Source: a virus. Taken from it: a stretch of 24,694 nucleotides of DNA. The position numbers and the translations under genes are program-made. Below are positions 785-21,945 of this stretch, piece by piece (the first letter of the stretch is position 1; every line of letters starts with the position of its first letter). The stretch is from the IMG/VR virus record IMGVR_UViG_3300046816_000250, positions 1-24,694 of that record; one strand, given 5' to 3'. The notes under the pieces were generated by a model that worked only from the letters and a program-made list of their open reading frames with translations, did no database searches and was not told the DNA's origin.

Positions 785-839
785 CTATCAAGTTTTTGGC
801 CGGGTCTATCAAGCGGGCGCTGCCGCCACCCGCCAAGTA

Positions 840-867
840 TCGGGAGCGCGGCTAGGGTAGCTCCCGA
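840..867 (+). other. 8-bp stem-loop in leader
   Basis: TCGGGAGC (840-847) and GCTCCCGA (860-867) are perfectly complementary around a 12-base loop. It lies 10 bases before the left arm of the larger inverted repeat. No U-tract follows, so it is not an obvious intrinsic terminator. Confidence 0.55.
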
Positions 868-875
868 ACCCCCGG

Positions 876-927
876 TCTCCTTGCACGGGCTGCCGCGCGC
901 TTACCCGCAAGGCGTTGTGCAAGGAGA
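876..927 (+). promoter_or_regulatory. 11-bp inverted repeat masking the ribosome binding site
   Basis: TCTCCTTGCAC (876-886) pairs perfectly with GTGCAAGGAGA (917-927). The right arm includes the AAGGAG Shine-Dalgarno sequence (921-926) that serves the TTG start at 934, so the helix would block initiation. CCTTGC (879-884) can alternatively pair with GCAAGG (907-912), which would leave the Shine-Dalgarno free. The pairing is seen in the sequence; the regulatory role is inferred. Confidence 0.55.
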
Positions 928-933
928 AGCACG

Positions 934-1413
934 TTGAACAAAACTAAGATTGCCGGCGCCATCGCGGCCTTAGCCCTGGCCGCTCCGCTGGCTTGGGAAA
1001 TTGCGGCCCCCGCGTATCGTCATCAACACGGCTGTATCAAATTCTACGGCGAGTGGTGGGGCGACCCCGATTTCGACAGTCAGTGGGTTTGCCCGTATGA
1101 CGTAAACCGCATGGCGGACATAGACTATCTCAGGCGCGTCGTCCTGAAGGTCAAGAATTGGAACGATCTTGCGCGAGTGATGCAGGAGCGAAAACCGAAA
1201 CTATCGCCGGCGCCCAAAAAGGTAGAGGCGCCGGAGCCTGAAAAGAAGGCCGAGTCCTTCGACTCGCTGTTGTCGAACCTCGGAAAGAATCCGGCCATAA
1301 CCGACCCGCCGAAGCCTTTACCTGAGACGCCAAAGCGACAGCCGATCCCCGCCACCCAAGTCTGCGGCCCGGATCACTGGCAAAAGGACCATTGGGAGCC
1401 CTCCTGCAAGTGA
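934..1413 (+). CDS. exported four-cysteine protein with proline-rich stalk (TTG start)
   Basis: The start is TTG at 934, seven bases after a strong AAGGAG (921-926); no ATG fits. The 159-residue product begins with a Lys-containing N-terminus and a hydrophobic stretch (residues 6-27) that looks like a signal peptide or membrane anchor. Four cysteines follow (C34, C53, C144, C158), suggesting two disulfides and a periplasmic location. Residues 87-142 are Pro/Lys/Glu-rich, like the stretched linkers of periplasm-spanning proteins such as TonB or some spanins. The family is not recognised; a role in the envelope (lysis or host-surface modification) is only a guess. Translation is probably limited by the hairpin burying its ribosome binding site. 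Its stop abuts the stop of the opposite-strand gene. Confidence 0.65.
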   Translation: MNKTKIAGAIAALALAAPLAWEIAAPAYRHQHGCIKFYGEWWGDPDFDSQWVCPYDVNRMADIDYLRRVVLKVKNWNDLARVMQERKPKLSPAPKKVEAPEPEKKAESFDSLLSNLGKNPAITDPPKPLPETPKRQPIPATQVCGPDHWQKDHWEPSCK

Positions 1414-2019
1414 TCATCGCCTGACGAGCGTCGCCGCGATCTCCCGCGCGGCACCGACCGCGCCTTCCTCGGCACCGCGATCGGGCGCCTTCAGCCATGT
1501 CACATAGATCACGCCCACGAAGGCGGCTGGGCTTGGCGGGATGGGGACGGCGCAGCCGCGTTGCATCCCCCTTTCGGCGAGGCGATGCACGACGGGCGAG
1601 GGCGCGGCGAGCGTCAGGTCCGCGCACGCCGGGTGCCCGTTGATCACGTCGACGAGCACTTGCAGATCGGTCGCCCGCACGACGAGCGGTAGCCGACGCG
1701 GCTCGGGGATCACGGGGCGTTCGCCATCATGCCGCCGAGCGCCGATGAACCGCTGAGAGTTGGTCGAGAGGTCGACGCTCCAGATCTGGACGAGGTCGGC
1801 GCCGGTGTCCTCGACCAGCTTTTCGAGCGCCGCCGGGACTGCCGCCGTGTTGAGCGATACTGCCGAGGGCGTCAGCCACGCCTCGATCAGCTCGTCGCGC
1901 TGCTCATACGCGACCCATCCCGCGCCGCCGACGACGAACAGCACGACGATCGCGACGACCCGCCACGGGCGGTCAACATAGGCGAGAACCTGGGCGAGAA
2001 ACGACGACGGGTCAGCCAC
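1414..2019 (-). CDS. membrane-anchored GAF-like protein, last gene of the late operon (GTG start)
   Basis: The 201-residue protein starts at a GTG (2017-2019) overlapping the end of the S74 fibre gene by 8 bases. Residues 20-40 form one transmembrane helix. The remainder alternates strands and helices in a pattern like a GAF domain: a helix around 60-72, a strand motif containing VQIWSVD near 78-84, a charged turn, and a closing strand (FVGVIYVTW, near 167-175) before a C-terminal helix. GAF domains bind small ligands or mediate dimers; here the assignment is by pattern only. Lysis genes often occupy this place after the fibres, so a holin-associated or lysis-timing role is possible but unproven. 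There is no catalytic muralytic motif. The downstream end abuts the convergent gene with no spacer. Confidence 0.6.
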   Translation of the reverse strand: MADPSSFLAQVLAYVDRPWRVVAIVVLFVVGGAGWVAYEQRDELIEAWLTPSAVSLNTAAVPAALEKLVEDTGADLVQIWSVDLSTNSQRFIGARRHDGERPVIPEPRRLPLVVRATDLQVLVDVINGHPACADLTLAAPSPVVHRLAERGMQRGCAVPIPPSPAAFVGVIYVTWLKAPDRGAEEGAVGAAREIAATLVRR

Positions 2020-19090: not shown

Positions 19091-21034
19091 CTACCAAGTG
19101 ACCGCCGCAATCCAGGCGATGACGCCGGTGCGGCGCATGGCCCAGTTCATCGGCAGGATCATGCGCAGCGCCAGGCTGTCGGTCTGGTACATCGACCGCG
19201 TCGGCGTTGCGACGACACCCGAGCCTTGTGCGCCGGTCGTCAGTTGCAGCGGCGTCGTGTCCTCAAAGTGCAGCGTCGCCTGGTCGCTGACCTCAAAGCG
19301 CGGGTCGTCCCCGCTCACCGACATGAAGTCGGCGGCGTCCAGCAGCATGACTGTCCCCGATGTCTGGGTGCTCGAAACAATCACCGGGTAGCCTTGCAGC
19401 GTCCTGCCGTCGATTTCCTGCTTGAACGGGAAAACGCCGTTCGCCGTCGCCGTCAGGCCGATCGAGTTGGTCTGCGACGGGTGCATGATCCACACGGGCG
19501 ACCGCAGCGAATTGGCGGCGGCCAGAACGTTGATCATCTGCTTGATGTCGCCGACCAGCGCGGTGAATCCGCCGCCGGCCGTCGGTGTCAGGCCGGCAAC
19601 GCCACTGCGCAATCCGGCTGGCCGCACGCCGCTCACCGCCGTCGCATCGAGCAGGATCGTGTCGATGGCGATATGCGTGTCTTCCATGATCAGCGAGCGC
19701 AGGATGGCTTCAATCTGCGGGTTGGAATGCTCGGCGATTTCCCGCGTGTACGACGTAATCACCGCCATCTTTTTCAGGCCGATGGTGATCGGCGTGAAGG
19801 CCGCCTGCCTCACGGGGATCGGCGCGCCTTCGGCGATGAACGACCCCGCGACCGTGGGTGTGGTGACGCGGGTCGGCATCGACAGCACCGCAAAACGCCC
19901 GAGGGTTGCTCTGAACCCGTAGGACGACAGCGGCCCATAGACCGAGCCGGGATAGAGCAGATCGAGGAACTCGCCATATGTCGTGGTGGCGAGGGTGTCG
20001 GCCCAGCCCGCACCGCCGATCGTTGCCGGCGCGCTGGCGGCGCGGATAAACCAGTCGCTGACCCCGCGGGTAACGTCGAAATCGCCGTAACTGCCATAGC
20101 GTTCCTGCATCACCACATCGATCGGCTTTTTGGTGATGTGCGACAGCGCCACGCACGCCATGTGGCGCAGGTACAGATATCCCGGCTCCTCCTTCTTTTT
20201 CGGCTGCGCCCAGGTTTTGGGTGCGCTTGCCGGCAGCGGCTGGTTCGGTGCGTACACCGTGGTGCGGGCCGCCGGGACGTTGATGGCTTCGCTTGCCGTG
20301 GCACCGAGCGCCTTCTCGGCCCGTTCCCAGGTGGCGATAAGGTTCTGCGCTTCCTCGATACGCAGGGTGAGGTCGTCCATCTTCGATGATTCGTCGGGGT
20401 CGATGCTGGTCAACTGGTCGCGCATGGCGACGAGCTCGGTCTGTTTGGCTTGGATGCGTTCGCTGAGCTGGTTCATCGGTTTGTGCTTTCGGATGAGGGT
20501 GTCTGATCCGGCTGGCACGCCGATGGGCCGCTGATCCGGCTCGGCTGGCACGCCGAAGATCAGGCTTTGCGTCTCGCGGGATAGTCCGATGGACTTGGCT
20601 ATCGCCAAGGCATTCGCATTAGCGGGCACGCTGACGAGCGAGCACTCGACGAGTTCCTGTTCGAGGAAGTGCAGGCCGCCGTTCTTTGAGCCTTCGAGCG
20701 GCTCATATTTGCTCGGGTGAAACCCGACCGAGACCGCGCGCAGCACGCCGGCGTCGACCGCCGCCTTGATCTCGCGCTGCCGGTCGGAGACCGGGTCCAG
20801 CAGGTCGAGGCGGCCGGTGAGTGCGCCGCGGCGAACGCCGACATCGGACCACTTGCCGATCGGGAAGCTCGCGTCGTGGCCGAATAGCGCCACGGGGTTG
20901 CGCCGGAAATTGTCGAGCAGCCAGCCATCGGGATCGATCACGTCGCCCATGCGGTCGACGCTGCCGTCGGACATGACGAACTCTTGCGGATCGCCGGCCG
21001 GAGGCGGCGCCGCTTTCTCTTTGGTGCGGATCAT
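19091..21034 (-). CDS. fused prohead protease - scaffold - major capsid protein (HK97 type)
   Basis: A 647-residue fusion. Residues 1-170 are an S78 (HK97 U35-type) prohead protease: His53 in FGHDA, Ser102 in VSVGF, and a likely acidic third residue near Glu130 (in ELVECSLVSVPANA). Residues about 187-245 form a coiled coil (NQLSERIQAKQTELVAMRDQL) that corresponds to the scaffold (delta) region. From about residue 285 to the end is the HK97-fold capsid protein (for example PTVAGSFIAEGAPIPV, GLKKMAVITSYTREI, AIDTILLD, GYPVIVSS, WAMRRTGVIAWI). In this family the protease cuts itself and the scaffold out during maturation. There is no Shine-Dalgarno before the internal Met186, so a single precursor is likely. 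The start overlaps the regulator stop (TGATG). Confidence 0.93.
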   Translation of the reverse strand: MIRTKEKAAPPPAGDPQEFVMSDGSVDRMGDVIDPDGWLLDNFRRNPVALFGHDASFPIGKWSDVGVRRGALTGRLDLLDPVSDRQREIKAAVDAGVLRAVSVGFHPSKYEPLEGSKNGGLHFLEQELVECSLVSVPANANALAIAKSIGLSRETQSLIFGVPAEPDQRPIGVPAGSDTLIRKHKPMNQLSERIQAKQTELVAMRDQLTSIDPDESSKMDDLTLRIEEAQNLIATWERAEKALGATASEAINVPAARTTVYAPNQPLPASAPKTWAQPKKKEEPGYLYLRHMACVALSHITKKPIDVVMQERYGSYGDFDVTRGVSDWFIRAASAPATIGGAGWADTLATTTYGEFLDLLYPGSVYGPLSSYGFRATLGRFAVLSMPTRVTTPTVAGSFIAEGAPIPVRQAAFTPITIGLKKMAVITSYTREIAEHSNPQIEAILRSLIMEDTHIAIDTILLDATAVSGVRPAGLRSGVAGLTPTAGGGFTALVGDIKQMINVLAAANSLRSPVWIMHPSQTNSIGLTATANGVFPFKQEIDGRTLQGYPVIVSSTQTSGTVMLLDAADFMSVSGDDPRFEVSDQATLHFEDTTPLQLTTGAQGSGVVATPTRSMYQTDSLALRMILPMNWAMRRTGVIAWIAAVTW

Positions 21035-21945
21035 CAGAATAAACTCGGTTGCACGGGCGGCATCGGTTTCGGGAATTCAATGATTGTAGTGCCTTGCGCT
21101 ATCTTCAGATTGTCCTGAAAAGCGCGAAAGTGTGCTTCAATACTGTGTCGCGGTATTCGTCCCGTCAGCAGTCCTTGATTGATGTCTTTATCGACCAACC
21201 AAAAATTGGTGATGTGTGGGTTATCAACCGTGTAAAAATGTTCAATTTCAGCAATTGGTTTGCCATCAATGCCTCTTATTAGACTGAGACGATCATCGAC
21301 GATCTGAACACCAGTCACCGGAGACTTGCCGCCGTAAAACCGAGAAACAACATAAATTAGCAGGCGCTCATGCTTTTTCCCGGCAGCGCGGATCTTGCTT
21401 TTGAGAACTCGCTTGATCTCCTCGACCTCGACTCGCACGTCCTTAACTTCATCGCGGACGAGATCAAGATTACCGTTGACGGCGTCGACTTTGTCCTCCA
21501 TCCGATCGATAGCCCGATCTTGATCGTCGAACCGAATGGCTAAAGGGCGGACGATCTCCCGTATGGCCGCTATGAACTCCTCGTGCGTCGTAATGTCGGG
21601 GCGCGAGTTAAGTAATTCCTCCATCTGGTTGAACGCCTGAATGTAACGAATTTGAAATGACGCCGCTTTGTCCCCGCTCCACTTTTGAACCAGAAATGTA
21701 AAACCGTCACGAGTAAGATCAAATGCCGGTAGGCGCTTGCCCTGCTCTGAAATATAACTGGTGGGACGAAACCAATTTAGAGAACGCAAATCTGCGTTCT
21801 CCTCTAACCGAGTTTCGATGTCCCGTAAAACGTCCGCGTGCCGTTTTCCGAACTCTGAGGCCACGTCGAGACTGCTGACGACAGGCGTTCGCCCATCAGC
21901 CCGCAACCGCAGTTGTTCACATAATGCGGGGAGATTATCGGTCAT
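21034..21945 (-). CDS. Rha-type phage regulatory protein with C-terminal HNH-like region
   Basis: A 303-residue protein. Residues 20-110 match the Rha regulator domain (PVVSSLDVASEFGKRHADVLRDIE, then a beta segment and FTFLVQKWSGDKAA, characteristic of the family), which in other phages blocks growth or lysogeny choice in certain hosts. Residues about 140-185 form a coiled coil. Residues 191-283 resemble an HNH endonuclease shape (VVSRFYGG..P.TG, EIEHFY at 234-238, KDIN at 253-256, FRAFQDNL) but the metal-binding Cys are absent, so it may be a degenerate binding domain. The gene is far more AT-rich than its neighbours (one 60-base line near 21240 is 40% GC), which suggests recent acquisition. 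GGGGTGA precedes the ATG. Confidence 0.8.
   Translation of the reverse strand: MTDNLPALCEQLRLRADGRTPVVSSLDVASEFGKRHADVLRDIETRLEENADLRSLNWFRPTSYISEQGKRLPAFDLTRDGFTFLVQKWSGDKAASFQIRYIQAFNQMEELLNSRPDITTHEEFIAAIREIVRPLAIRFDDQDRAIDRMEDKVDAVNGNLDLVRDEVKDVRVEVEEIKRVLKSKIRAAGKKHERLLIYVVSRFYGGKSPVTGVQIVDDRLSLIRGIDGKPIAEIEHFYTVDNPHITNFWLVDKDINQGLLTGRIPRHSIEAHFRAFQDNLKIAQGTTIIEFPKPMPPVQPSLF

Follow-up and report, generated by a model that had tools for sequence, protein, structure and literature searches.

Comparison of int-alpA RNA leaders points to a built-in translation switch accompanying unrelated prophage cargo genes

Does the leader in front of a TTG-initiated viral gene act as a translational switch, and if so, what kind of RNA is it? 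The gene in question (934–1413, plus strand, as are all features below unless noted) lies in a 24,694-nucleotide viral record, IMGVR_UViG_3300046816_000250, which was analyzed over its whole length and is referred to here as the window. It encodes a 159-amino-acid protein with an exported-looking N-terminus and no family match, and its Shine-Dalgarno, AAGGAG (921–926), sits 7 nt upstream of the TTG at 934; the related contig L004 carries a TTG at the equivalent position. A sequence-only reading of this DNA had proposed that one arm of the leader enters two mutually exclusive helices, one of which buries the Shine-Dalgarno. Both helices are indeed present: an 11-bp perfect inverted repeat (876–886 with 917–927) and a 6-bp helix (879–884 with 907–912). 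The same reading held that such pairing is unlikely by chance, and 2000 dinucleotide shuffles of 785–960 bear this out for the 11-bp repeat (11 of 2000) but not for repeats of at least 8 bp (445 of 2000). The latter frequency makes the 8-bp stem that it had placed at 840–867 unremarkable. This repeat (840–847 with 860–867) exists, but it is at chance level, is broken in the relatives L008 and L016 and is incompatible with the P1 helix described below, and we rejected it as a part of the switch. The folding energy of 785–960 is likewise ordinary (z −0.42), and the case therefore stands on comparison rather than on energy.

The leader belongs to a known RNA family, a membership that had gone unnoticed. 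Across the whole window, an Rfam search returned a single match, int-alpA RNA (RF02996; 845–912, 38.6 bits against a cut-off of 35.8), and our own covariance model also recovers the leader (845–936, 49.1 bits). The Rfam alignment, our model and covariation across 101 leaders place a three-way junction here, composed of P1 (846–852 paired with 892–898), hairpin 1 (855–865, stem 855–857/863–865) and hairpin 2 (871–889, stem 871–874/886–889). The hairpin-2 loop (875–885) is the arm common to both helices and, judging from the Rfam alignment, the permutation test and the covariation presented below, a probable built-in anti-Shine-Dalgarno. The 6-bp helix corresponds to the conserved int-alpA pseudoknot, in which loop bases 879–884 pair with the 3′ tail at GCAAGG (907–912), a decoy copy that we call rep1. 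The second partner of the loop, rep2 (GTGCAAGGAGA, 917–927), is the complement of 876–886 and holds the Shine-Dalgarno, which is presented in the loop of a small hairpin of its own (917–932, stem 917–920/929–932), also overlooked at first and present throughout the family. Since the arm is a hairpin loop within a three-way junction, both alternatives would be pseudoknots or kissing pairs rather than nested stems, a point missed in the first reading. RNAfold, which cannot draw pseudoknots, favors a nested stem in the window. We nonetheless rejected a plain nested-stem reading of the 11-bp repeat, which would destroy the covarying junction. Further upstream, the conserved block begins with a direct repeat of CTATCAAG (785–792 and 806–813, 21 bp apart), which could possibly be an operator or promoter.

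The leader recurs in close relatives of this locus. A search with the downstream protein yielded no relatives and a nucleotide search of phage records gave no match; the neighboring gene at 1414–2019 (minus strand) led to 21 viral contigs. In five of these (L002, L003, L004, L008 and L016), the leader is 90–95% identical to ours from about window position 782 to the Shine-Dalgarno, and all five exceed the Rfam cut-off for int-alpA. The genes 3′ of these leaders differ. The downstream proteins of L003, L004 and L008 have only a C-terminal CGPDHWQKDHWEPSC motif in common with the window protein. This shared C-terminus, CGPDHWQ(K/R)(D/N)HWEPSC, follows unrelated N-termini, which suggests that 5′ gene parts have been shuffled behind one leader. 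In L016, the downstream gene encodes a superinfection immunity protein (PF14373, E 2.2e-17), and comparison with L009 identifies a unit of about 436 bp, made up of the leader and this gene, that is missing from L009. The two contigs match closely on both sides of this unit, with 99.4% identity across 335 bp of one flank and 92.7% across 923 bp of the other, and the difference sits upstream of the gene that matches window 1414–2019. Between its flanks, L009 has just a stub, CTATCAAGTTT, and then a terminator-like hairpin; the stub retains the first CTATCAAG copy alone. Leader and gene, present together in one contig and absent from the other between near-identical flanks, thus behave as one cassette. 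Elsewhere in the window, a Rha-like/anti-repressor gene (21034–21945, minus strand) sits between the genes for the capsid and the large terminase, which is unusual for a regulator.

Pattern scans of viral and genome contigs, together with model searches that covered about 600 genomes, yielded 226 leaders, of which 145 were non-redundant after quality filtering. Of 398 genomes drawn from a single phylum, 52 contain at least one leader. Nearly everywhere, the order continues past the Rfam boundary in the same way: the junction is followed by rep1, then by a short hairpin whose loop holds the Shine-Dalgarno (rep2), and finally by a start codon, the latter picked by rule. The MAFFT alignment of the Shine-Dalgarno hairpin was too poor for column counts, and we therefore compared it with shuffles: its mean stem score is 4.02 as against 3.03 (z 17.3), and the stem sequences themselves vary widely. 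The three-way junction covaries richly in the 101-leader alignment and its joints (CUAG, GAAA and CUG) are conserved. The GAAA joint had suggested a hammerhead ribozyme, which we ruled out by eye because the CUGANGA strand is absent. The tips of hairpin 1 fall into a few discrete sequences (GACG, GGCC, CUGAUC and UAGCU), sometimes on an extended stem, as in L173, L175 and L230, and may be a recognition site. In some genomes, two or three int-alpA leaders follow one another on the same strand (G037:C33 2650–5157 and G129:C2 289410–290168), spaced as closely as about 700 bp, as if leader-plus-gene cassettes had been stacked.

The genes behind these leaders are diverse. In 138 of the 145 leaders, an open frame of 35 codons or more starts 20–60 nt behind P1, and the 138 encoded proteins are mostly non-homologous, forming 76 blastp clusters. 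Most match nothing in Pfam or PHROGs. Among the few that do are an HNH nuclease, an exonuclease, a methyltransferase, RepA and a ParB-like protein, and neither database reveals a function common to the downstream genes. Two loci have a gene order consistent with the family name: integrase, leader, variable gene and AlpA-like gene in L023, and leader, variable gene and AlpA-like gene in L037, with AlpA recognized by eye in both.

Could the match between loop and ribosome-binding site be due to chance, or to the plain likeness of any Shine-Dalgarno to any anti-Shine-Dalgarno? Any CCUU loop will find a partner in a purine-rich ribosome site or in an AAGG, runs of about 4 arise even between permuted pairs, and the folding energy of the leader is ordinary. 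We tested 126 leaders by permutation, a procedure that breaks relatedness without modeling it. The mean longest Watson-Crick run between the loop and its own rep1 is 5.37, compared with 4.04 after permutation (z 16.3), and with its own rep2 it is 4.84, compared with 3.97 (z 11.5); each beats all 5000 permutations. The excess persists when each distinct loop hexamer is represented once (54 leaders; z 10.9 for rep1 and 9.6 for rep2), and the stretch behind the ATG that served as a control reaches z 1.1. The rep2 match is 3 bases or fewer in 15 of the 126 leaders, and L121 has no clear copy. For covariation, we used a covariance model whose paired elements were limited to P1 and the two hairpins, such that the loop and rep columns of the resulting alignment of 101 leaders were left unpaired. 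In this alignment, complementarity to the loop forms exactly two sharp peaks, at rep1 and rep2, and the covariation scores (0.261 versus 0.169 for rep1; 0.310 versus 0.238 for rep2) were reached by none of 500 shuffles in either case. Slid controls fall below the true register, although a slide of one column is nearly equal because the copies change register between leaders; for rep2, double changes are even more frequent at slide −1 than at the true register. In addition, loops that depart from CCUU retain matching copies (GCATCG/GATGC, TCCGCA/GCGGA, CTCTCC/GGAGAG and TCCTG/CAGGA). Against these observations, an origin in chance or generic likeness is already largely refuted and hardly credible. 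Loss of the pairing in homologous leaders had been named as what would speak against a switch; the pairing is instead retained and covaries, and homologous leaders support the view that one arm has two exclusive partners, one of them the Shine-Dalgarno.

We propose that the window leader is a cis-acting int-alpA translational leader in which a built-in anti-Shine-Dalgarno loop engages either a decoy or the ribosome site, and we put the probability of this reading at roughly two in three. Its component parts, their conservation, their covariation and the specificity of each loop for its own site are seen directly in the sequence comparison. In the proposed mechanism, the three-way junction would display the hairpin-2 loop as a built-in anti-Shine-Dalgarno. 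Pairing with rep1, just behind the junction, would form the pseudoknot and keep the ribosome site outside the pairing; pairing with rep2, in the short hairpin loop by the start codon, would block it. The two pairings need the same loop bases and are mutually exclusive, and their balance should therefore set translation of the next gene, here a prophage cargo gene. By sequence and covariation, the leader has the exclusive pairings, one freeing and one blocking the Shine-Dalgarno, that are expected of a translational riboswitch. We infer an exchange between the two states, a drop in translation when rep2 is paired, and a trigger, whether protein, RNA, ligand or temperature, that tips the balance. 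The window is the family extreme for rep2 pairing (−16.4 kcal/mol, compared with −9.7 kcal/mol for rep1), and because rep2 pairing is so much the stronger, translation is predicted to be "off" by default.

Family-mean duplex energies for the two pairings are equal (−8.4 and −8.3 kcal/mol), as might be seen if the leader were static, its pairings merely fixing a low level of translation or protecting the RNA with no signal to flip them. The lack of a known trigger and the lack of a function common to the downstream genes fit such a leader too. However, a second loop-complementary copy, retained in most leaders, exceeds what a fixed hairpin needs, as does a richly covarying junction, and we consider a static leader quite improbable. 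At the other extreme, the cis-acting leader could be a riboswitch in the narrow, ligand-binding sense, a special case in which a small molecule bound by the junction steers the choice between rep1 and rep2. A compact three-way junction with conserved joints and a pseudoknot 5′ of the Shine-Dalgarno would suit this role, but the downstream genes have no common pathway and therefore suggest no ligand; we regard this special case as very unlikely.

The leader could also act in trans, as a member of a family whose Rfam type is sRNA. A released junction could use the hairpin-2 loop to silence the Shine-Dalgarno sites of other mRNAs as well as its own, and both the complementarity of the loop to Shine-Dalgarno sequences and the T-rich stretches behind P1 in some members are compatible with a trans-acting sRNA. 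The window, however, has no T run behind P1, and the fixed layout of leader, Shine-Dalgarno hairpin and start codon speaks against such an RNA. Moreover, in genomes with multiple leaders the loop prefers its own Shine-Dalgarno over those of the other leaders (summed score 184 versus 168 expected; 5 of 5000 permutations). This within-genome match favors action in cis, and a trans-acting sRNA appears unlikely.

Weinberg and colleagues reportedly described the int-alpA RNA in 2017, using comparative genomics. The window leader resembles the family in its above-threshold sequence and structure, its three-way junction and a loop complementary to the 3′ tail, and close relatives share the integrase gene upstream on the same strand (1–3.4 kb away in four of them; the window is a fragment without int). 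It differs in that the Rfam model stops at rep1, to which we add the Shine-Dalgarno hairpin and the second copy, and in the cis role proposed here in place of the sRNA type. A further difference is that AlpA (PF05930) is absent from the window and six related contigs, all possibly fragments; the alpA neighborhood gave the family its name and lies outside the Rfam model. In the literature searched, a single paper names int-alpA, as one row of a table listing sRNAs detected in genomes. The literature searched, with subscription papers and supplements outside its reach, offers no mechanism for int-alpA, and the downstream Shine-Dalgarno hairpin and the double complementarity of the loop thus appear to be undescribed. 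SAM-II and preQ1-II are translational riboswitches in which the Shine-Dalgarno is trapped in a pseudoknot. They similarly are compact pseudoknotted leaders whose pairing can occlude the ribosome site, but the int-alpA leader has no known ligand, precedes unrelated genes and contains a decoy Shine-Dalgarno copy that would compete for the loop. In the repZ leader of IncI-type plasmids, the pseudoknot has an activating role that is opposed by an antisense RNA. There too, on a mobile element, the loop of a hairpin finds its partner in a distant stretch close to the ribosome site; in int-alpA, by contrast, the loop is predicted to pair with the Shine-Dalgarno itself and the decoy lies within the same leader.

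The covariation between loop and Shine-Dalgarno makes the orphan int-alpA family a testable translational leader and explains why the family retains both loop and tail. More tentatively, and at somewhat less than even odds, int-alpA RNAs may be widespread, self-contained translational switches that move as leader-plus-gene cassettes in prophages and satellites, with the junction serving as a sensor that selects the decoy or the ribosome site. If so, any cargo gene behind such a leader would fall under one shared signal. Our findings suggest how many unrelated prophage cargo genes, including those for superinfection immunity, could be jointly silenced or released.
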